Assembly: GCA_014607495.2 (NCBI GenBank)
Contig: CP053159.1
Coordinates: 9,803,501 to 9,867,500 of the forward strand
DNA length: 64,000 bases
Source: Carposina sasakii
Lineage: Eukaryota > Arthropoda > Insecta > Lepidoptera > Carposinidae
Reading direction: 5' to 3'
Under the pieces are notes generated by a model, which did not search any database, had not been told where the DNA came from, and saw nothing but the letters and a program-made list of their open reading frames with translations. The translations under genes and the position numbers were made by a program. Positions 2,856-59,169 of the stretch are shown in pieces (position 1 is the first letter of the stretch; each line of letters begins with the position of its first letter).

Positions 2856-3215
2856 TATACAGGTGATTTTTGGTCGTCAACGTTCCCGAAAACTACGGAA
2901 TCTCCTCATAATCACGATCATTTTTCTCCATGGTAGCATACATGGGAAGGGTCTGGTTTCCAAAATATTAGGGTCGAAAGTTGAGTAAATAGACTGCGTT
3001 TTTCTGCTTAAATGCACGTAGCGGGATTTTTTTCACGAAAAATAATTAATATCTGTCTATAAAAAAACTAACATAAACACAAGACACTATAAATTTCGCA
3101 CAATCAAGGAATAAAAAAATAAAAAACCCAGCATTTTATTGGCATAAACTTACATTATTTGATCTATAGAGTACGTACCCTTCGTTAATGGTGGCCACAA
3201 AAAAACACCCTGTAT
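2856..3215 (+). repeat. MITE family A (about 370 bp, CAGGGTG-type ends), copy 1
   Basis: The element runs from TATACAGG-TGATTTTTGG to AACACCCTGTAT. Characteristic internal phrases are 'cgttcccgaaaactacgg', 'tggtttccaaaatattaggg' and 'acgtacccttcgttaa'. At least seven more copies lie in this window on both strands. The matching CAGGGTG/CACCCTG ends and TA-rich flanks fit a non-autonomous mariner-like element. It sits in the AT tail of the family C repeat. Confidence 0.85.
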
Positions 3216-4840: not shown

Positions 4841-5277
4841 TGACGTAGATGGGTCGAGTGGCGTGCCGTTAGGCGTGTCCGACATCTTCCAAAATCCGAA
4901 ATAAAGAATGCGGCGTGTAGTAAACAAGCTTAATTAGGAATCACAAACACTTTCACTGTATCTACGCACAAGATTACTAGGATTCTAGCGGATAACGTAG
5001 AAACGTGGTAAGTACCAGACAGAGGCTGATTAGCACCCGTGCTTCGCTCGACCGACGCAACAAGCAAGAACAGAATACCCTCCGGCTCCATTCAAACGAC
5101 CCGGTGGTCGTTGTAAATCTACAGTGGCGCCCTCTCAGTACTCTGTCTTGTCTTTACCCAAGTGACAGCTGTCCTCCAGTCAGTGATAGCTGTCGACTTG
5201 ACGTTTCTAACTTCAACGATTGAAAATAGATGGCGTTGGAGATCCGACTGTAGGATATGACATCTTGATCTCCGACA
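4841..5277 (-). repeat. 3' LTR of the Gypsy element
   Basis: This 437-bp direct repeat matches 9536-9972 without any difference that I could find. On the sense (minus) strand it starts TGTCGGAGAT and ends CTACGTCA, so it has the TG...CA ends of an LTR. Outside the pair the sequences diverge at once (g/t on one side, c/t on the other). The small open frame at 5005 appears identically in both LTRs and is not a gene. Confidence 0.92.
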
Positions 5278-5294
5278 CGGCCATTTTGACAACT

Positions 5295-5878
5295 CACGCG
5301 TCCTCGCGTGGGGTTTCTGGAAAGAAAGAGGATTTTGCAAAGTAACATGTATCACGCTCGGTCTTTCTGACCATTTTGACAGACTACCCGTCCTCGGGTA
5401 GAACCGATGAATCTGTGAACAAGATAACTCAAGGAAGTATCTGCGCTCGGCCATTCTGCCTTAACTTAAATTTAAAGACTTCTTATTACAATAGTTCATG
5501 AAATCACAAAAATCGCTCATCGACCGTCAAGTTCCCAAAATCTTTACGTAAAGACATAAAAAATAAAAGATAAGCAGACTCGCACATACGTTTAAATCAG
5601 TCAGACCTTTCCTTCGGTCAACATTACAGTAACAGTTAGTCATATAGCCAGTCCTTCGGCTATCTACTATGGAAACACAGTCCTTCGGTTTCCAACACAC
5701 ACATGTAGCACAGTCCATCGGCTACCTACTACGGAAACACGGTCCTTCGGTTTCCAACACACACATGTAGCACAGTCCATCGGCTACCTACTACGGAAAC
5801 ACGGTCCTTCGGTTTCCCACACACACACATGTAGCACTGTCCATCGGCTACAGCAGAAACTCGGTCCTTCGGTTCTGC
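5295..5878 (-). repeat. Hairpin array 1: variable stems, constant GGA-type loops
   Basis: Eleven stem-loops share a loop core but not a stem. On the + strand: CACGCG/CGCGTG (5295-5310) and CTACCCG/CGGGTAG (5384-5401), both with loop TCCT; GACC/GGTC (5604-5619); ATAGCC/GGCTAT (5644-5663); GGAAAC/GTTTCC at 5671-5693, 5733-5755 and 5795-5817; GTAGC/GCTAC at 5705-5725, 5767-5787 and 5831-5851; GCAGAA/TTCTGC (5853-5878). Loops read GTCC(T/A)TC(G), that is (C)GA(A/T)GGAC in the element's sense RNA. An additional GGTC/GACC hairpin at 5360-5372 has a different loop. The phrase 'ccattttgaca' precedes the first two. The array lies between the RT fragment and the 3' LTR. Confidence 0.85.
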
Positions 5879-6171
5879 CACAAATACATACTACTGTCTG
5901 TCAAGGGTTTGTCAAAGTCACAATTTAAAAAAACCGGTCAGTAACTTGTACATCGCATATGAAAATTCATTCATTTAGACTCTGAGGTCACATTAATTTC
6001 GATATCAAAATTACTAGGAACTTGATGGTCTGGCACCCTACGGACCCGATCGTGCGAATATTTGTAGGTTCGATTTGAAGACAAAGATTTTAGTCGGTAT
6101 CTATCACCATCTAACAATTAAATTTTATACGGTCCTTAAAATTTAGGATCTAGTTTAACTTGATTACGTTT

Positions 6172-6375
6172 TTAATGAAAGAAAAAAGAATGCTTAATGA
6201 ACACATCTAAGACACGTCGTAGACGTTCCAACCCCTGCTCTCCTGTAGAATACAATACCAGCAGGTCATCAATGTAAGAAACAATATAACTATGAGCTAA
6301 TTCACCTAAAGCTTTTGCTATAGCCCGCTGATAAACTGAACTGGCGTTCTTTAAACCAAACGGCATGGCACACAC
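6172..6375 (-). pseudogene. Isolated Gypsy RT palm fragment (YIDD)
   Basis: The 67-residue frame contains MPFGLKNASSVYQRA and IVSYIDDLLVL, the RT motifs around the YxDD catalytic box. It is a second RT piece in the same element and clearly diverged from the first (MPFGLKNAPAVFQRA, VVVYMDDVLVV at about 7560-7690), so it is not a simple tandem duplication. It has no upstream or downstream RT sequence and sits between the two hairpin arrays. It was probably captured by template switching from a related element. Confidence 0.85.
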
Positions 6376-6446
6376 AAGGTAAATAATTCCAAAACAAGGC
6401 TACAGTATACACAATCCATATAGAGTAACGTCAGTCAAGTAAGTCT

Positions 6447-6666
6447 AGTTGCCTCAATCTAGCAACTCTTGGAAACTTCCATCCAGCTTCCGTAAACCAG
6501 TCTAGTCACTTCCATCCAGTGACTCTTAGAAACTTCCATCCAGCTTCCGTATACCAGTCTAGTCACTTCCATCCAGTGACTCTTGAATACCTCTATCCGG
6601 TATCCGTAAACCACTCTCAATCAGTCAACTCAACATTAATTTGAACATGACGGTCCATCCCCGTCA
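6447..6666 (-). repeat. Hairpin array 2: constant TCCATCC heptaloop
   Basis: Six stem-loops carry a TCCATCC-type loop (GGATGGA in sense RNA): GTCACT/AGTGAC at 6505-6523 and 6562-6580, TGACGG/CCGTCA at 6648-6666, GGAAAC/GCTTCC at 6471-6491, a related one at 6529-6547, and GAATACC/GGTATCC with loop TCTATCC at 6585-6605. A neighbouring AGTTGC/GCAACT hairpin (6447-6467) has a different loop. Every stem mismatch is A against C on the + strand, which becomes a G-U wobble in the minus-strand RNA. The last hairpin overlaps the 3' end of the pol frame that stops at 6636. Confidence 0.85.
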
Positions 6667-7344
6667 AGTTCGCACAGATTATCATCACGGTCACATGTCA
6701 GCATGTCATTGGTAATGTCATTCGCAGGCATTCGCCTAAGTCTGTCATGTGCATACTTATAGGTTCTATTGGAATTAAGGGCTTTAAGAACATAACGATT
6801 ACCTTCAAGTACCTCCGATACCCTAAAAGGACCTCTATACTTCGGATCAATTAATCGAATTTCGAGTTCACCTGTAGTTACACGAGTTTTTGGCAAACCT
6901 GTTGTAAAATAACTGGAATATTCACCTAAAATAGTTAAAAGATCTGACTTTTTACAAGAGGGTATATCTGTGTCAACATTACTAAAGTCGTTACTGATAC
7001 TAGAATCGGTTAAAATGTCACAATTTAAAACTGTCAAATTATTTTGTTTTGAAATGCTAAAATTATTTGTTGACAAGTTAATAACGAAGCCTTAACTCAA
7101 TATTTCACGACCTAGCATAATATCACTACGCATATACACATCGGGTAAAACATGTAATAAAAGTTCTAAACAATAATCATTAATTTCAACATTACACAGT
7201 ATTTGCTGGGTGCTGAATACACTGGTTTGACCAATTCCCGTTAGAGAGACAGTTTTAGCAATTCTTTTACCATTGAAACTTGATGCAACGCTTTCTTTTA
7301 TTAGTGAACACTCAGCACCCGAATCATAATGAAAATCATAAAAT
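6636..7344 (-). pseudogene. Second protease + linker fused to integrase C-terminal domain
   Basis: Continuing from the truncated RT, the frame enters a second aspartic protease (FHYDSGAECSLIKES, then LLHVLPDVYMRSDIMLGREIL). It hits an in-frame TAA at 7092-7094, then continues in the same frame with the protease-RT linker (LLTILGEYSSYF...GELEIRLIDP). The linker joins directly to KYRGPFRVSEVLEGNRYVLK, typical of the GPF/Y module at the C-terminus of Gypsy integrases. RT, RNase H and the integrase core that should lie between are missing. The protease differs from the first copy (DSGSEC) at many residues, so two related element lineages contributed. Confidence 0.85.
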
Positions 7345-8422
7345 CTACCTTGATTATTAAGAGCGCCGGTCGGTGGTAAAGCGGTAAGTGCAACTATCTT
7401 TCGTGGATTCAGACGAATTTGACCTCGGCGCACCTCGAAGCCTAGGTACTCTACTTTTTCTTTCAGGAATGAGCACTTTTTAGGATTTAACGAAAATCCC
7501 TTCCCAGAAAGAACTTCTAATACTACCTTTAGTCTATCGAAAGCTTCGTCGATGTTACTGGCCACAACTAGCACGTCATCCATGTACACTACAACGTACT
7601 TGTTCACGAGATCGCCTAGAGCATGTATGAGAGCACGTTGAAACACTGCAGGAGCATTTTTCAAACCGAAGGGCATAGTAAGGTACTCATACTGACCTTC
7701 AGTTGTCACGAATGCTGTGCGCTCTATGGACTCCGACTCGATAGGGATCTGGTGAAATCCCGATGCTAAATCTAAAATTGTAAAAAAATGTCCTCCATGC
7801 AACCTAGCAATCTGTTCAGATATGAGTGGTAAAGGAAAACGGTCAGCAACGGTGTTATCGTTCAACTCCCTATAATCGACACACATTCTATCTGAACCGT
7901 CTTTTTTTTTACCAAAAGTATCGGGCTTGCGAACGGTGAAGAAATAGGTCTAATTACCTTAGCATTAAGCAGCTCGTTGATCTTGCCCCTCACAATCTGA
8001 CGTTCATCTGGGGTCAGCCTGTATGGGCGACGATTTACCGTCTTGTACGGGTCTACGAGCCGTATCTGCATAGGTTCAGTGTCAGCAGGAGAAGTAGGTG
8101 TACCGATAATGAAACTAAGCTTGAACCGTTCTAAAATCTCAATCAACCTAGGTCTGTATTCATTACTAACGTCAGTATCTACCAAGTCAAGGTCTATACC
8201 ATTATTTGCAACTACATCACATGATTCGACTATGTTAATTTTCTCGAAACGTACTTTATCTACCGACATATGTACAGTCAAACCGATAGCTAGAATTTCA
8301 CGTCCGATCATAATGTTGTATCGCAAACAATGGTCAGGTAAAACATGAAGGAGTATCTCAAAGTTAATATTGTCAATGTCAATTGGCGTTAAAATTTGCA
8401 TGGTCGAGGCTATAGAAGTTTG
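7345..8422 (-). pseudogene. Protease C-terminus and reverse transcriptase, frameshifted
   Basis: After the in-frame TGA at 8423-8425 the gag frame continues: protease end (LLHVLPDHCLRYNIMIGREIL), linker, then RT N-terminal motifs (RRPYRLTPDERQIV, VIRPISSPFASPILLVKKK). A run of nine T (nine A in sense) at about 7902-7910 shifts the frame by one. RT then resumes with CVDYRELN, the DLASGFHQIP motif, MPFGLKNAP and the YMDD box, and on through the thumb (EYLGFEVRRG, LNPRKIVAL). It breaks off at about 7350, where the second protease begins. The homopolymer shift could be a sequencing error; the mosaic joint could not. Confidence 0.87.
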
Positions 8423-8425
8423 TCA

Positions 8426-9580
8426 TATACCAGTCATAGAAACATTGTCATAAATTCGCTTACCACTAAATTTCAAAGCAATCGATTCTTTAACTAAGGA
8501 ACACTCTGAACCTGAGTCGTAAGTAAATGGGAATGACTCACCAGAGTGACGCAGAGAACCCGAAGGCGCATTCACAATGCACACGTCTACTCGCTTTTCC
8601 TTAGCTGGACCAGTTCCAGTGCCGCCGCCGGTACCGTTGTTCCCCTCCTTGATTTTCCTCTTCGGGCAGTCGAATGCATAGTGGCCTTGTTCCCGGCAGT
8701 TGAAGCAGGTGATGCGATCGGTTCTCCCTGTAGGTTGGTTGGTCGAGTTATGGTCCCCGTGAAAGGACCTGTGTTTGGACCGGTCATCTTGCTTCTTCGA
8801 ATTGGCTTTGTTGCGACATTGAAGAGATTTGTGGCCTAGTTGTCCATAATTAAAGCACTTGATGGTCACAGCAGATCCATTAGGTCGGTTTCTTTTTAGG
8901 TCGGGTCCATCACGATAAATACTTGATGAATAACTTCTCTTCAGGAACGAGACAGCCTTCAGTTCCTTTTGTAAATGGTTACGCGTCTTGATGTCAGTCG
9001 TTATAGCAATCCTCTGAACACGTGGCTCTTGTTTTGAAATATGAGCTAAGACAGTGGCTATTGCTATCTGTTCTGTAGTCAGTCCATTCCACCTTGCCAT
9101 TAAGGATGTTATGAGGGTAGCGGCGTATGAGGCCAGGCACTCGTTATCTCTCGGTTTCTTGTCGTGCATACTGATGAGAAAGGAAGCAGCAGTTTCAGGA
9201 CAGTCATACCTTGCTACGAAAAGCTCCTTAAAATCGGCCCACGTCATATTAGGAAACGATATTGAAGACAGCCAAGATGATGATCCATGGCGATGTCGAT
9301 CTGTGATACACATGTCCGCGGTCGTTATCCAAGCTCGGGCGTCGATGTCTCTTTTCTCTGGGTCGAAATCAGGAAGGCGAATAGAGTCCGAAGATGCAGG
9401 TAGTTTTATTGCTTGCACCAACGCCAGAAAATTTTGATTTTGTTGCTCGAAGAGAAGACGCCATTTTTCTTCGCTCGAGTCACTATTTGAAGCACGTGTT
9501 TCATGTGGGTGATCCGGGTTGCATCCCACGCCTGATGACGTAGATGGGTCGAGTGGCGTGCCGTTAGGCGTGTCCGACAT
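8426..9580 (-). CDS. gag: Gypsy gag with fused protease N-terminus
   Basis: From the ATG at 9580 the frame encodes 385 residues; an upstream in-frame ATG at 9622 is also possible. It contains a capsid-like region (residues about 60-240), a basic stretch, and two CCHC knuckles. The first reads CFNYGQLGHKSLQC, in which the second zinc-binding Cys is Tyr. The second, CFNCREQGHYAFDC, is intact. A protease starts after it (YDSGSECSLVKES). The frame ends at a TGA (8423-8425) inside the protease, where the second copy in this element has Gly. The start codon lies inside the 5' LTR, so the first 15 codons or so are LTR-encoded. Gag packages RNA and forms the particle; the zinc knuckles bind RNA. Confidence 0.88.
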
Positions 9581-9972
9581 CTTCCAAAATCCGAAATAAA
9601 GAATGCGGCGTGTAGTAAACAAGCTTAATTAGGAATCACAAACACTTTCACTGTATCTACGCACAAGATTACTAGGATTCTAGCGGATAACGTAGAAACG
9701 TGGTAAGTACCAGACAGAGGCTGATTAGCACCCGTGCTTCGCTCGACCGACGCAACAAGCAAGAACAGAATACCCTCCGGCTCCATTCAAACGACCCGGT
9801 GGTCGTTGTAAATCTACAGTGGCGCCCTCTCAGTACTCTGTCTTGTCTTTACCCAAGTGACAGCTGTCCTCCAGTCAGTGATAGCTGTCGACTTGACGTT
9901 TCTAACTTCAACGATTGAAAATAGATGGCGTTGGAGATCCGACTGTAGGATATGACATCTTGATCTCCGACA
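9536..9972 (-). repeat. 5' LTR of the Gypsy element
   Basis: Identical by eye to 4841-5277. In sense orientation it begins TGTCGGAG at 9972 and ends CTACGTCA at 9536, and the TATA duplication follows at 9973-9976. It contains the gag start codon near its 3' end, which is unusual because Gypsy gag normally begins downstream of the LTR and primer-binding site. Confidence 0.92.
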
Positions 9973-12262: not shown

Positions 12263-12630
12263 TTATACAGGCTGATTTTTGGTCGCCAACGTTCCCGAAA
12301 ACCACGGAATCTCCTCATCATCACGATCATTTTTCTCCATGGAAGCATACCTGGGAAGTGTCTGGTTTCCAAGATATTAGGGTTCAAAGTTGAGTAAATA
12401 GACTGCGTTTTTCTACATAAATGCACATAGACGTGCGTATCAAGATTTTTCCACGAGAAATAATTAATATATGTCTATAAAAAAACTAGCATTTTCGCCT
12501 GATCAAGTAATTATTTAAAAAAAAAAATCACTTCGTTTCCCAGCATTTTTTTTGGCTTCAACTTACTTTATTTGATGTATACAGTACGTACCCTTCGTTA
12601 AGGGTGGCAACGAAAAACATCCTGCATATA
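12263..12630 (+). repeat. MITE family A, copy 2
   Basis: It begins TATACAGGCTGATTTTTGG, carries the family's internal phrases, and ends GAAAAACATCCTGCATATA. The preceding 375 bp (11887-12262) shows nothing recognisable. Confidence 0.85.
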
Positions 12631-16100: not shown

Positions 16101-16617
16101 ATAAAGTAGGTACCTACGATTTCGCAGCAAAGATCAACAAACAGTTTTCTTCGCCCCTAAACTGCGTCCCCTAATATAAACCGATCGTGTAAAACTATTT
16201 CACTTCTTGACGGCGGAGAAATGTAGTAAGTTCCCCCATCTACTACCCCTAGCGCCGCAATGCAGGGTAGCTTCCGAGGGTAAGCCGAGTTATAAATTGT
16301 TTTAATTTAATACAACCCCGCGAATTTTTCCCCTACATACATATTTCTTCATAAGATGACTTCGCTTATCGAATTGAGGGAGATGTCAATGTAAGAACCT
16401 ACTAGACTGTGTACCTATATATTCAAAACTATCTGAAGCACGCAACTACGCCTGCTGATTTATAAACTATACAGAATGATTTTTGGTCGTCAACGTTCCC
16501 GAAAACTGCGGAATCTCCTCATAATCACGATCATTTTTCTCCATGGAAGCATACCTGGGGAGTGTCTGGTTTCCAAAATATTTGGGTCCAAAGTTGAGTA
16601 AATAGACTGGGTTTTTT

Positions 16618-18004
16618 TGGAACGAAATACCTTACGGCAGGCTTGGAGGAGATAGGAATTTTGCTGCGCGACCGAACTGAAAAAGCGGGTGGGGCTGTGT
16701 CGGGGCACACGGCCGTTGGTTTTAACGTGAAACGTCTATGTTAGCGAATCGCTTTTAAAGTAAAAGATTGAAATGAAAACAAGATGGACGCTGTTTTAAG
16801 TATTTTAATAAAAAAAGAACAGGTACGTAATAGAAACATAAAATACATAGCAAATGTTTATATATTTATTGTCACTTTCTGGTTATTTTAAATAGCAGCC
16901 GCCCACGACTTCGTCCGCGTGAGGGGGCGTTGTACCCGTGCGAAGCCGGGCAGGTTGTTGTATAGACTGTAGCCTTCCTTGGTAAATGGGCTATCTAACA
17001 CTGAAAGAATTTTTCAAATCAGACCAGTAGTTCCTGAGATTAGCGCGTTCAAACAAACAAACAAACAAACTTTTCAGCTTTATAATATTAGTATAGATAT
17101 AAATACTGTCCAAATTACACTTATTTTTGTATAAATCAATCGGTTCAAATAAACTTGACAAACACACGAAAGAATCACCACGCTATAAAGTCGGAGTCAC
17201 GAGTTACACTGAAAAGAAACAAGCGTGAGCGCCGGTTTCGCACAGTTATCGCAGTATCCCTCCCCCGCCGCCCCGCTTGACCCCGACACGAACTCAATGT
17301 CATAACAGCGAGCTGACTATATAAGTGAAATATTTACACCACATTTTTGTTTCTAAGACTAATAGTTTTTTAATTATTAAGGTACGATGATATAGACCTT
17401 TTCGTTACGGTCCAGTTTTTAAACCTGGTACCCGTATGTTTCGGCGCGATTTTAAAGACGTTTCACGTCAAAAAATGTGACAGTAAAACCGTAAGAAAAA
17501 GTGCGTGGAATAAAACCGTTAAATGAGACGTGCGCAGGCGCGACAGTCGTATACACAAGCGAGTAGTGTATAATACCTTTCTCTTTCTCCCTCTTTCTTT
17601 TCGTTCTCTCATCCCTTCTCTCTCTATTACTACTCCACCCCGCCAATGCATAGTACATACTCATGAATTCATGGACAAGCACGTGGCGAATACTCACATT
17701 ATAGATACATTTTACTCGTGAGTAGCCAGTAAATTTTATGTTGTCAAACAAAAATAAAGAGACATATTTTGTTATTTAAGTTGATAATTTGAATTACGAT
17801 TTTTTTTTATTTTACGTAATTTATTATTTCCTAAAATACTGAATTTCTTAACTACTTTCCTGTACTTAAATAAAAACGAATCAGCAAAATTTAAGAGAAA
17901 AATCAAGAAAACCTACATAAAATTGAGCACGATTTTTCTTTTGCAAATTGTGTCGATTCTACATTAGCCGAAGGAACTTCGTTCCTACCTGGTGTCCCAC
18001 GACA
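16618..18004. mobile_element. 1.39-kb insertion inside MITE A, unclassified
   Basis: It is defined by the break in the family A copy, with a T5 run on both sides. The left end reads GGAACGAAATACC and near the right end is GGAACTTCGTTCC, which suggests inverted termini. No transposase frame is visible. It contains an RTE-type tail at 16898-17098 and a pyrimidine-rich CT tract around 17575-17640. The minus-strand frames near 17452-17751 come from that low-complexity tract and are not genes. Confidence 0.6.
16898..17098 (+). repeat. RTE-type 3' tail fragment
   Basis: 'gcccacgacttcgtccgcgt' through 'cctgagattagcgcg', an (ACAA)n stretch and 'ttataatattagtatagat' are the standard landmarks of lepidopteran RTE-derived tails, related in plan to family C but distinct in sequence. 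Confidence 0.7.
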
Positions 18005-18372: not shown

Positions 18373-19349
18373 ATCAGTTCAGTAGTTTTCGCGTGAACAA
18401 CTCTCACAAACATTGTTAATAGTAGGATACTTTGTAGATGATTTAACATTAATCGTAGTAGATCTTTGTAGATAACTATTACAGAGGCTGGTTTCGTATT
18501 TACACAATAGAAACACAAAGCCACCAAGCTGCTCGTATACCAGAGAATGCGATTACATTACAGATCCTAAATAAATCTTCCATTGATTTCATATTGTATT
18601 TGAATTTTGGAGTCAAATAATTTAATCGACGAGTTTATAGATACAATATATCGTCGACGGAAAGGCAATTTTACTGAAGCGCCAAAACGGCATTTTTGGG
18701 AAATGAATTTTAAAGTCTTATTTTTCGGAAAAAAATCATATAAAATTTTGTGTTGGGTATATTTTTTTCAAACCAAGACCATTCGAATGTTTGATTTTTT
18801 TGTCATCTTTTAAAGATACAGGGAAGTTGCTAACATGTTTAGTTTAAGAATTAATGGGCGCTTAAGTAAAAGGGACTGATCCTTTTTTAAAATCTAGATA
18901 AGGCAAAATTTTAATTTTTATTTAAAGCAAGCCAAAATTACTTACAAGAAAAAATAAATGAATTTCTGGTAAGGCAAAATTACTAAAGTAAATAACTTAT
19001 TATTTTAGGTGCGCGGCAAAAATTTCTTATTTATCAATTAGGGAATATTCCACTAACGGCATAACTTCTAAATAAGAATAATAATGTATTTCAATAGAGG
19101 GCTAAATTTCTTATGATAAGAACAATGATAAATATAATGTAAGTCACACTTACCTAAGGAGATATCAAACGTAATGTCATGTTAAGAAAAACTACAAATA
19201 AAATATTTTAAGTTAATTGAGAATCTTCAAAATAAAAAAAAATAAAAAAATAAAAGCTTATTTGCCACATTGCGAAATAAAAGAAATATGAAAAAATTCT
19301 AACATGACATTTGACTTTCTTGTCAAAGAGAACATTTTACTAATCTAAT
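18373..19349. other. Unclassified AT-rich DNA
   Basis: No coding frame or repeat boundary could be supported. The frame at 18607-18813 has no recognisable domain. Confidence 0.4.
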
Positions 19350-19700
19350 ACAGAGTGTATTTTCGTTGCCACCCTCAACGAAGGGTACGTACTCTATACA
19401 TCAAATAAAGTAAGTTTATGCCAAAAAAAATACTGGGAAAAGATGTATTTAAAAAATAATACTTTATCGGGCGAAATTTATAATGTCCAGTGTTTATGCC
19501 ACTTTTATCGTAAAAAAAATCTTGCTACGCGCGACTATGTGCATTTTTGTAGAAAAACGCAGTCTATTTACTCAAAATTTGGACCCTAATATCTTGGGAA
19601 CCAGACACTTCCCAGGTATGCTTCCGTGGACAAATAATCGTGATGATGAGGAGATTCCGTAGTTTTCGGGAACGTTGACGACCTAAAATCACCCTGTATA
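19350..19700 (-). repeat. MITE family A, copy 4 (reverse)
   Basis: It reads 'acagagtgtattttcgttgc' to 'aaaatcaccctgtata', the complement of the family A consensus. Confidence 0.85.
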
Positions 19701-20048
19701 TTAAGAGAATAATTTGATAAATTACCATTAAGACTATCTAGTATATAGGTGTAGTTTTCGTGTATACCTATGTTTTTTGTGTTTAAGAATCATGAGCTAG
19801 CTCTATACAGGATGATTGGAAACAGATATCATACCTCCGTAGGCGTAAAAGTGGCCCATTTGCTGCCTTTATTTGTATGGAACACTTGATTTATATTTCT
19901 TTGTGCCCTAGATGGGACAAAAGCCTACACAGATCTTCGTCATCCCGCTCGATTCTGAGCATCGCGTTTTAGTTCACTCCAGGTCTTCCCTACTTTCTTC
20001 GCCTCTGCGATGATTGTACGCCACCAGATCTGCTTAGGATGGTTAAGT

Positions 20049-24534: not shown

Positions 24535-24919
24535 TATACAGGATGATTTTTGGTTGTCAACGTTCCCGAAAACTACGGAATCTCCTCATCACCACGATCA
24601 TTTTTCTCCATGGAAGCATACCTGGGAAGTGTCTGGTTTCCAAAATATTAGGGTCCAAAGTTGAGTAAATAGACTGCGTTTTTCTGCATAAATGCACATA
24701 GACGCGCGTAGCAGGATTTTTTCACGAAAAATAATTAATATCTGTCTATAAAAAAACTAACATAAACACTAGACACTATAAATTTCGCACGACCAAGGAA
24801 TTAAAAAAAAATTAAAAAAAAAAAAAATCCCCGCATTTTTTTTGGCATAAACTTACTTTATTTCATGTATAGAGTACGTACCCTTCGTTAAAGGTGGCCA
24901 CAAAAAAACACTCTGTATA
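24535..24919 (+). repeat. MITE family A, copy 5
   Basis: It runs from TATACAGGATGATTTTTGG to AAACACTCTGTATAA, nearly full length. The following 650 bp (24920-25571) is unclassified; 25005-25085 shares 'ggcagaagtgtgcaaatta' phrases with about 2430-2490. Confidence 0.85.
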
Positions 24920-29472: not shown

Positions 29473-29800
29473 CTACTCAGCTATACAGGCTGATTTTTGA
29501 TCGTCAACATTCCCGAAAACTACGGAATCTCCTCATCATCACGATCATCACATTTCCTTGGAAGCATACCTGGGAAGTGTCTGGTTTCCAAAATATTAGG
29601 TTTCAAAGTTGAGTAAATAGATTGCGTTTTCTGCATAAATGCACATTGACGCGTGTAGCAAGATTATTTCACGAGTAATAATTAATATCTGTCTATGAAA
29701 AAACTAGCATAAACACTGGACACTTTAAATTTCGCCGGATTAAATAATAAAAAAAAATTCAAAAAATTTACATTGTTTCCCTGCATTTTTTTGGCATAAT

Positions 29801-55646: not shown

Positions 55647-57188
55647 GTAAGTATTACTTTTATATACATACATAACATACAAATGGCTGAGCTCTTGGCA
55701 ATACACAGATACTTGGATTTATACAGGTGTAACATAAAAGTGGTATGTTAAATTATAGCTACATGTTTACTTTTCAAGATTGTATAAACATTCCTGAGTT
55801 GCTTGGGAATTCTTCATACTATACGAAAAAATTACCATGTGATAGTATGGTTAATTACCTATGGAGAAAAAAAAAACATATAAGTAACAGTAACAGGGCA
55901 GATGTTAATCATCCATCAGTGATTGATAAGTAATCGTCTGAGAAAATGCCCGAGTTCCTTTGTCAATAAAAAGCGACTCTAAAATGAAAAATATTATGTT
56001 TGCAAACACTATGAGAAATAATATTTAATGTAAATTTAATAATCAACAAATTGCTCGTATTTTCTAGCATCAGTAAGTCCTTTCGGTAAAATGCGCCTGA
56101 AAAGTGACGATTTTGCTACATAATATGTGGACGGAGCCAGCTTAAATTGTTGCGTTGGTAGTGGCTTGATATTTATCGTAAATAATAAATTAGAACCAGT
56201 GAATATGTATGAAAACAAGATCTAGCTTAATAAAAGGTTCCTGGTATTTACCCAGATAAAGAAATTAGTTTGCTGAAAAATGTACAGCGAATTATACCTC
56301 GTATATTTGGGTTACCAGGAACGTTTTATTGGAATATGCTTGCATTTTTTAATAAATTAAATTTGTGTTTTCGCAATATTTTTATAACATCAAATCCTGG
56401 AAAGTGTAAAATTATTGATTTCTAAAGGCAACTGCATGCTGTCTAGTCTAGATGGTATATAGGTATTATATTATGTAAAATGTGATGGCTATACTAAAGA
56501 TCGCTTCAAAGTGCACTGGTGCACTCTTGGCAGTAATAATTAGGTTTGCCATCGCCAACATGACTGATTAAATAGTATGTGTGGGTCTGAGACCTATCTG
56601 TGTTCATAGTTAAAGTAACATTGTTCCACAATGGGCGTTTTTTCACCTGACGACGCGGGCACGACACGACCACGGCTTTTTTTGGAGACATAAATGTATT
56701 AAATAGTATGGCTCGTTTTCCACTAGACATCACGATCACAACTCGGCCCACCATACTAGATGACGAAATGTCGTGGTCGTGTCCTAAATACGCCCAATGA
56801 TGTTACTTATCATAAAATATTCTAGAATAGCGGTCAAGTCATCTAACGAACGCCAAAAATTGAAGGCCTTTCTTAGAAGAAATTGTTACGGTGACGAACT
56901 TTTGTCGCCGATAATTTGTCTAAGCTGCTTGCTTAGGCGATAAACACACTGTCACGCACCACGCTGCATGTTGCGTGTCGGCGGACCTAGGCGTGATCTG
57001 CATGAACGCGCGTGGATGCATTTTCTGTGTGTTGGACTGTGCGTGTATTTCTATGCAAACGGAGATAATTACAAGCAACGTTAGTAAACGCATTCACGCG
57101 CTACGCTGCATGGTGTGTGGCAGTGTGATAATCGTCTTAGAGTTGTGATGACACTTGACTAGATATCTATTGTGTTATTACTTACATA
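55647..57188. other. Downstream of the last recognised beat exon: MITEs and unclassified DNA
   Basis: A family B fragment lies at about 55725-55860. 56627-56802 is a palindromic MITE (family H), listed separately. 56940-57130 contains inverted pieces with 'acgctgcatgttgcgtg' and 'acgctgcatggtgtgtgg'. I looked for a phase-1 terminal exon of beat and found no convincing one. Confidence 0.5.
56627..56802. repeat. Palindromic MITE family H
   Basis: The ends 'caatgggcgttttttcacc' and 'ctaaatacgcccaatg' are inverted. Inside, 'acacgaccacggc' faces 'tcgtggtcgtgtc'. Related sequence occurs at 3775-3835 and 10545-10680. Confidence 0.7.
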
Positions 57189-57530
57189 CATACAGGGTGT
57201 ATTTTCGTTGCCACCCTTAACGAAGGTTACGTACTCTATATACATCAAATAAAGTAAATTTATGCCAAAAAAAATTGTGGGAAATATTATGTCCAGTGTT
57301 TATGCAAGTTTTTTCATAGACAGATATTTATTATTTCTTGTGAAAAAATCTTAATACACGCGTCAATTTGCATTTATGCAGAAAAACGCAGTCTATTATC
57401 CAACTTTGGACCCTAATATTTTGGAAACCAGACACTTCCCAGGTATTCTTCCATGGAGAAAAATGATCGTGATGATGAGGAGATTCCGTAGTTTTCGGGA
57501 ACGTTGACGACCAAAAATTACCCTGTATAC
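57189..57530 (-). repeat. MITE family A, copy 7 (reverse)
   Basis: TACAGGGTGTATTTTCGTTG to AAAATTACCCTGTATA, complement of the consensus, with a small internal deletion around 57280. Confidence 0.85.
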
Positions 57531-58688: not shown

Positions 58689-58793
58689 GAACTAAAAGAT
58701 AGAATCATGGTCTGAAGTCACCATAGCAATATTTGCCTGGCTGTCATAAACATTCTGTATAATATACCGTGGCAAACCAACCTCTATACAGGA

Positions 58794-59169
58794 TGTTTTC
58801 ATTTGTGGCCACCTTTAACGAAGGGTACGTACTCTATACATCAAATAAAGTAAGTTTATGCCAAAAAAATGCTGGGATTTTTTTTTCAATTTTTTTTTTA
58901 AATTACTTGATCTGGCGAAATTTATAGTATCTAGTGTTTATGTTAGTTTTTTTATAGACAGATATTAATTATTTCTCGTGAAAAAATCTTGCTACGCGCG
59001 TCTATGTGCACTTATGCAGAAAAACGCAGTCTATTTACTCAACTTTGGACCCTAATATTTTGGAAACCAGACACTTCCCAGGTATGCTTTCCATGGAGAA
59101 AAATGATCGTGATGATGAGGAGATTCCGTAGTTTTCGGGAACGTTGACGACCAAAAATCATCCTGTATA
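58794..59169 (-). repeat. MITE family A, copy 8 (reverse)
   Basis: TATACAGGATGTTTTCATTTG to AAAAATCATCCTGTATA, close to the consensus throughout. Confidence 0.87.

Follow-up and report, generated by a model that had tools for sequence, protein, structure and literature searches.

The question raised by this locus is what the hairpin arrays beside the 3' LTR of a Gypsy element of Carposina sasakii are for, and whether their structure is under selection. The window analysed here, the whole stretch of 64,000 nucleotides, holds this element at 4841-9972 (Table 1). Its two LTRs are 100% identical over 438 bp in the self-comparison of the window (match segment 4840-5277), which together with the TATA target duplication indicates a young insertion. 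The LTRs run from TG to CA with a target duplication in the 4-6 bp range of Ty3/Gypsy, and homologue comparison added to the RVT_1 match a set of relatives with Gypsy-type RT/RNase H, some of them so named; the element presumably resembles the mdg3/micropia/blastopia lineage. Its gag is shorter than the homologues in one internal stretch, and of the CCHC knuckles ascribed to it in the preliminary description one was found by Pfam while the second is degenerate. The pol region is rearranged into RT fragments, protease-like pieces and a probable integrase tail, and neither RNase H nor an integrase core was found by Pfam in the five ORF pieces of the element. We conclude that it is a young, defective, non-autonomous Ty3/Gypsy copy, which, without the RNase H/integrase core, must be copied by partner proteins. 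Within 7092-7886 the RT ORF extends into a second stretch resembling a protease (Asp_protease_2, below cut-off), an order also seen in those of the examined family copies that cover this part. The window also contains a dispersed repeat, possibly a SINE, in both orientations and 77-94% alike (2856-3215, 12264-12492, 16468-16619, 19348-19704, 24535-24918, 29482-29755, 57188-57529 and 58786-59169).

Table 1. Features of the element and of its 3' region (window coordinates)
Feature	Position	Strand	Remarks
5' LTR	9536..9972	-	TG..CA ends; gag ATG inside; 4-bp target duplication TATA
Putative primer-binding site TCAGGCGTGGGAT	9523..9535	-	abuts LTR, within gag frame
gag ORF	8423..9622	-	399 aa from first listed start
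Partial reverse transcriptase	7382..7886	-	RVT_1 (Pfam)
ORF with pre-RT and probable integrase-tail remnants	6636..7076	-	no Pfam match; pre-RT by comparison with P0024
Array 2	6447..6666	-	7 hairpins; 7-nt loops GGATGGA / GGATAGA / AGATTGA; differing 6-7 bp stems
Second reverse-transcriptase fragment	6187..6366	-	between arrays 2 and 1
Single hairpin TAAATTTTA-AGGACCGTA-TAAAATTTA	6119..6145	-	AGGACC loop
Array 1	5604..5878	-	9 hairpins; loop CGA(A/T)GGAC(C/T)G or close
tRNA-Leu 5'-end-like motif GGCAGAATGGCCGAGCG	5444..5460	-	
AGGA hairpin unit a, CTACCCG-AGGA-CGGGTAG	5384..5401	-	
tRNA-Leu 5'-end-like motif GTCAGAAAGACCGAGCG	5355..5371	-	12/15
Putative 3' splice site	5317..5331	-	pyrimidine tract + CAG; sequence match, without null
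LTR-adjacent hairpin unit b, CACGCG-AGGA-CGCGTG	5295..5310	-	common to several families
GTCAAAATGGCCG directly before 3' LTR	5278..5290	-	11/13 to nt 1-13 of tRNA-Leu(CAA)
3' LTR	4841..5277	-	LTR pair and flank comparison

On the sense (minus) strand of 5278-6670 we found 14 non-overlapping hairpins whose stems are 6 bp or longer with no more than one G.U pair and whose 3-13 nt loops contain GGA; 1000 dinucleotide shuffles of the same region yielded 1.37 on average and never more than 5, so that the listed hairpins with differing but complementary stems are real. The antisense strand of this region has one such hairpin, the remaining internal region (6671-9534) none, and the other 54 kb of the window 35 and 46 on the two strands; the density reaches 6 per 300 bp in 5278-6670 versus at most 3 in those 54 kb. 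Since tandem units of 62 bp and 57 bp underlie many of the repeats of the arrays, fewer than 14 of the hairpins are independent, with 12 distinct 5' arms among them. When shorter or bulged stems were allowed, the count rose to 19 distinct places, all but one within the arrays, in keeping with the "at least 17" stem-loops first described. They fall, however, into three groups rather than two arrays, namely array 2, array 1 and the two AGGA units near the 3' LTR, with one further hairpin at 6119-6145. As to their placing between pol and the 3' LTR, pol is rearranged and its last ORF (6636..7076) terminates within the first array-2 hairpin.

If the stems were neutral, the 5' arms should pair equally well with their own 3' arms and with those of other hairpins. 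Exchange of the arms in array 2 gave an own pairing of 5.93 versus a cross pairing of 2.83 (0/5000 permutations). For array 1 the first anchor, which yielded a non-significant 597/5000, began inside a bulged loop and was therefore changed; the resulting value (own 5.88 versus cross 3.14; 1/10000) is post hoc. Among the arrays of relatives, L094 (78/5000) and L109 (42/5000) reached the 2% level and L101 (481/5000), L095 (707/5000) and L097 (1222/5000) were not significant, while L113 (0/5000) carries the same array as array 2 and is hence not independent. In all, stems covary in 4 of the 7 independent arrays tested in this way. Folding of whole regions against shuffles gave z values of -4.15 (sense) and -3.72 (antisense) for array 2 and -1.18 for the AGGA region; array 1 showed no folding advantage over shuffles in the sense orientation (z -0.48) but did so in the antisense one (z -3.45). 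Local folding over 24 regions hardly differed between the strands (mean z of -2.28 for sense and -2.24 for antisense; below -2 in 12/24 and 15/24, respectively).

Relatives of the element were collected with an RNase H bait from a Pararge protein (150 matches scored of 1371 candidates), and from these 23 loci were hand-picked to spread over the score classes and their 3' pieces (L092-L114) fetched. The CG-AGGN-CG motif CGAGGNCG, with mostly pairing flanks, precedes the inferred 3' LTR start in 22 of the 23 loci; in the remaining one, L111, the piece stops short of the LTR. These 22 loci amount to about 19 families, since L107 and L113 have the LTR type of the window and L114 has the arms of L103. 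The 3' LTR start is proven by paired LTRs in the window and inferred elsewhere from the common border CCG|TG, and comparing L092 with its 5' piece L131 reveals where the LTR of that family ends; from the end of CGAGGNCG to the inferred LTR start there are about 19-24 nt in the rows read. Nine further junctions (L115-L123) came from a search with a pattern of CGAGGNCG and GRCCGTG, which had 474 matches versus 15 for the control; four listed matches resembling chance in GC-rich DNA were omitted, and as the pattern contains CGAGGNCG these nine count for the stems only. The whole set, including the two units of the window, comprised 34 rows with 30 distinct arm pairs. At pairs 3-7, 120 of the 150 cells were paired, compared with a shuffle mean of 94.7 (sd 3.4, maximum 110; kinship ignored); none of 10,000 shuffles reached 120, and slid registers paired 25-80 of the 150 cells. 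Twenty-six cells were changed on both sides and one on one side, and 30 were broken, the outermost pair accounting for 14 of these. Counting the closing CG, 20/30 arm pairs form an unbroken stem of at least 5 bp, and in 7/30 the stem is broken directly after the closing CG. In L099 the LTR-adjacent AGGA motif occurs twice, 15 bp apart (472-510, sense), reading HEDVTHEDV. In many junction rows a small inverted repeat, CCG-TGT/TGA-CGG, spans the LTR border, which is mostly inferred.

Upstream of this shared hairpin the arrays of the relatives differ. The loops of L109 are of the CGCTGGT(C/T)AAGTG type and sit on stems of up to 11 bp, those of L094 are of the TCGATAGAG type, the units are CAGC-GGAG-GCTG in L106 and GGTC-CTAT-GACC in L111, and L101, L095 and L099 have short G(T/C)C stems; GGA loops are not a general feature, as the array loops of several other families lack GGA. 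Two of the loci, L107 and L113, share array 2 and the junction with the window, their LTR start is identical to it over 60 nt, and both have an RNase H match (in L107 with a stop inside the frame); their pieces contain neither array 1 nor the RT fragment nor unit a, and they are likely the partner lineage of the window element.

We also searched the genome (399 Mb, 31 contigs) for copies of the window family itself. Its 3' region had at least 42 matches at 96-100% identity, with the best 40 of 378 candidates scored, and the array-1 double-loop pattern had 818 matches versus 9 for the control. The number of units in the arrays differs among copies, and those examined have their pieces in constant order, with no space for an RNase H/integrase core. 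Sixty own-family stretches were aligned to the window (L046 and L091 being one locus); they were chosen by similarity to the 3' region or by loop pattern and are therefore uninformative on array loss. Identity to the window was at least 99% in 57/60, the others being L076 (98.8%), L074 (97.1%) and L047 (88.5%). Among the fetched copies L047 stands apart, with numerous short deletions and an identity that varies between 72% and 94% from piece to piece; it was considered as the seed of an older subfamily, and this was rejected, as no second such copy was present among the 40 scored candidates. Over the 59 family rows (L091 excluded), private and shared substitutions per 100 sites were 8.8 and 1.7 in stems, 9.4 and 0.6 in loops, 5.9 and 2.5 in the spacers within arrays, and 10.9 and 1.7 outside arrays. 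Within the family, in a 60-row comparison of the window with 59 fetched stretches (one locus counted twice), the stems show no sign of constraint and are not more conserved than the spacers, a comparison of low power for constraint and covariation alike, since with 57/60 stretches at least 99% identical there are too few changes. The selection on structure originally proposed is supported by the arm exchange (in array 1 post hoc) and by the covariation of the LTR-adjacent hairpin, but not by constraint within the family; and on the converse possibility, that the stems mutate without compensation or are plain tandem copies, the evidence is mixed, the stems behaving like spacers in that low-powered comparison while the arm exchange speaks against it.

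The LTR beside the array is of the window type in 41 of the 60 own-family stretches and of the L102 type in 16; three have none, as L047 is decayed and L088 and L090 stop at or before the LTR. L054, L067-L073, L075 and others carry both the junction and the LTR of the L102-type family. Where copies have a 3' end of the L102 type, their alignment to the window query breaks off near the tRNA-Leu-like motif at 5444..5460. These ends probably arose by template switching between RNAs packaged together, and the 16/60 stretches suggest, without proving, that RNAs of the two families were copied in one particle.

The tRNA-Leu-like motifs led to both ends of the element. Searches of the host for tRNA-Leu genes gave 13 matches, 7 of them exact; L125-L127 were called by ARAGORN, and L124, which ARAGORN in its bacterial setting did not call, we take from its sequence to be a tRNA-Leu(CAA) gene with an intron. 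The primer-binding site of the window matches the antisense of L124 at 11/13 positions and resembles, at the level of sequence, the complement of tRNA-Leu(CAA) minus the 3' CACCA; its best 16-nt match, 12, is not above the null maximum of 12. That of L102, TCAGAAGTGGGAT, is a perfect match to tRNA-Leu(CAA) without its last five bases (null maximum 11/16), and that of L103 matches at 14/16 (null maximum 12/16); L096, with 11/16 and an extra GTG, is not above its null of 12, and the L092 piece ends within the motif. In all five (window, L102, L103, L096 and L092) TCAG directly follows ..CA. In the gag frame 9523-9535 reads SEVG, and S(E/D)VG was found in 10 of 17 gag N-termini (the window and P0001-P0016), in a stretch that is otherwise variable.

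At the other end, no polypurine tract was seen before the 3' LTR of the window, GTCAAAATGGCCG standing in its place, and related sequences occupy the polypurine position at the other junctions read, the LTR start being inferred there. Over 28 loci (near-duplicates L107, L113, L114 and L123, and L111, which has no junction, being excluded) the pre-LTR stretch matched nt 1-13 of tRNA-Leu(CAA) at a mean of 9.9/13, against 6.2 in mononucleotide shuffles, with 19/28 loci above the 99% level. Of those picked by a pattern that holds part of the tRNA-like motif (L115-L122) 2/8 passed, as did 17/20 of the others. Among 482 windows, which cover both strands of three tRNA-Leu genes and tRNA-Leu genes only, sense nt 1-13 of tRNA-Leu(CAA) was the best (9.93; next 9.21). 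In several of the misses a single-base indel interrupts the centre of the motif, which argues against strict templating. A second tRNA-like copy upstream of the junction hairpin exceeded the 99% level in 12/28 loci. The arrays, the junction hairpin and the tRNA-like stretch beside the LTR together point to a structured signal in packaging or copying.

The explanation that we tentatively prefer, although we judge it somewhat less likely than not to prove right, is that the arrays are a structure under selection, most likely a multivalent Gag-recognition signal whose putative binding is read from sequence features. Hairpins that are conserved or covary and expose their loops, as in a packaging signal, are seen here in the hairpin excess, the arm exchange and the covariation. 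The arrays would sit in the 3' untranslated region, which may be intronic in some families, of many related Gypsy elements, and their repeated loops would form a multivalent platform to which, most probably, the nucleocapsid portion of Gag would bind, thereby selecting full-length RNA for packaging. That the loops differ between families would be expected if families sharing a cell had to distinguish their own RNAs. The window element carries an array 2 like that of its likely partner and, in addition, array 1, while some of its copies have a 3' end from another family.

It is possible, though somewhat unlikely, that the arrays instead control splicing or export, lying upstream of an acceptor-like site and keeping part of the transcripts unspliced, with the GGA loops as SR-protein-like motifs. 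A pyrimidine-rich YAG occurs upstream of the LTR-adjacent hairpin in 21/23 pieces, a raw count without a null, the best site within 80 nt having a pyrimidine fraction of 0.57-0.93; in L093 this signal is weak, and L111 has none. Donor-like GT sites scoring at least 7 of 9, likewise without a null, lie near the pol end in L099, L101, L104, L106, L110 and L111, and with GGTAAGTT read in L095 a total of 7/23 pieces have a donor-like site; the phases agree in L095, L099, L101, L104 and L106, where the second exon would read ..PEDV, ..HEDV, ..HEDV, ..HEVV and ..HEGV, respectively. In contrast, the window element itself and 17/23 pieces have no donor with such a score at the pol end, and the variation of the loops between families counts against this control.

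Rather unlikely in our judgement is a scheme in which tRNA-Leu(CAA) primes both strands. The 3' part of the tRNA, cut 5 nt from its end, would prime the minus strand at the primer-binding site inside gag; a sense copy of nt 1-13 of the tRNA would replace the polypurine tract immediately ahead of the 3' LTR, allowing minus-strand DNA to anneal the 5' part of the tRNA, and a nick after nt 13 would lead to plus-strand priming exactly at the LTR. The AGGN hairpin would mark this plus-strand start, and the arrays upstream would be family-specific packaging codes.

Decidedly unlikely is that the structures act in DNA, as hairpins of minus-strand cDNA near the plus-strand start during reverse transcription, or as recombination sites. 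Consistent with this are the distance of about 19-24 nt between the end of CGAGGNCG and the inferred LTR start, the better antisense folding of array 1, the match ends of L102-type copies near the tRNA-like motif and, in the LTR-adjacent hairpin, an excess of A.C mismatches over G.U pairs (8 versus 1), as expected if the antisense strand pairs; these counts are small, however, and 4/8 of the A.C cells lie at the weak outermost pair. The arrays lean the other way, to sense RNA, with 10 G.U pairs versus 4 A.C (small counts, L109 left out). Over the 24 regions the two strands fold similarly, and either strand may act at the LTR junction.

That the arrays are functionless tandem repeats of palindromic units, amplified by slippage, we regard as very unlikely: the 62-bp and 57-bp units, the varying unit number between copies and the lack of constraint within the family would fit, but the arm exchange disfavours this reading, under which neither differing stems with the same loop in one array nor a junction motif with compensated stems in 22/23 loci chosen regardless of it would be expected. 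It is highly improbable, too, that the LTR-adjacent hairpin is the mere palindromic coding of a C-terminal ..HEDV tail of spliced pol, since, even if CAC GAG GAC GTG TGA encodes HEDV and stop in several families, the reading continues past the HEDV position in L093, L098, L100 and L103 and meets a different frame in L110, and yet the stems of these five, which are not alike, still pair, apart from a single A.C mismatch in L098.

The multivalent Gag-recognition reading has its nearest parallel in the retroviral psi, in which exposed G-rich loops of hairpins are bound by nucleocapsid knuckles; the purine loop of MMTV is reportedly another retroviral packaging example. The window element shares with psi several hairpins, short G-rich loops and a CCHC Gag. 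Its hairpins and those of its relatives differ from psi in lying at the 3' end, in tandem series of up to nine and with loops that vary between families, and binding by Gag is putative.

Among LTR retrotransposons, the packaging sequences of Ty1 and Ty3 are not precisely defined according to the accessible part of PMC4974528, so that they offer no close precedent for a 3' array. Ty3 has a bipartite primer-binding site whose 3' segments are complementary to tRNA-iMet (PMC4974528, PMC11381356, as far as accessible) and is alike in that the primer tRNA is related to both genome ends; here, in contrast, the 3' motif abutting the LTR resembles the 5' end of tRNA-Leu in sense orientation, and the best of the 482 windows compared was likewise sense rather than complementary to the primer tRNA as in Ty3. 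With Ty1 the element shares a primer-binding site within the gag frame (PMC4974528, same part), but here the gag ATG is in the LTR and the site skips the last 5 nt of the tRNA. For Gypsy elements of Culex, the accessible part of PMC3286476 describes comparable features, namely Mag-lineage primer-binding sites that pair with tRNA-Leu or tRNA-Ser, untranslated regions with tandem repeats and, in one element, a tRNA dimer next to the 5' LTR; that part mentions neither a hairpin array nor a tRNA 5' end before the 3' LTR. Helenus TRIMs are LTR elements that likewise contain tRNA-related sequence, which by the accessible part of PMC10886601 lies in the LTR of an element that has a polypurine tract. 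In the literature searched, mainly open-access and available in part, there was no description of a hairpin array in an insect Gypsy element nor of a tRNA 5' end at a plus-strand start. Collections of viral and prokaryote contigs had no match to the gag, the gag alignment or the hairpin and junction patterns, and phage records and Rfam had no match.

Outside retroviruses the packaging signals of LTR retrotransposons are poorly defined, Ty1 and Ty3 being an example (PMC4974528, accessible part). Were co-resident families indeed to carry loop arrays of their own, the selection of self from non-self RNA would become testable, and family-specific arrays would give a view of how non-autonomous elements parasitise their partners. 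If the LTR border does carry a tRNA 5' end, this would bear on how the second strand may be started without a polypurine tract.
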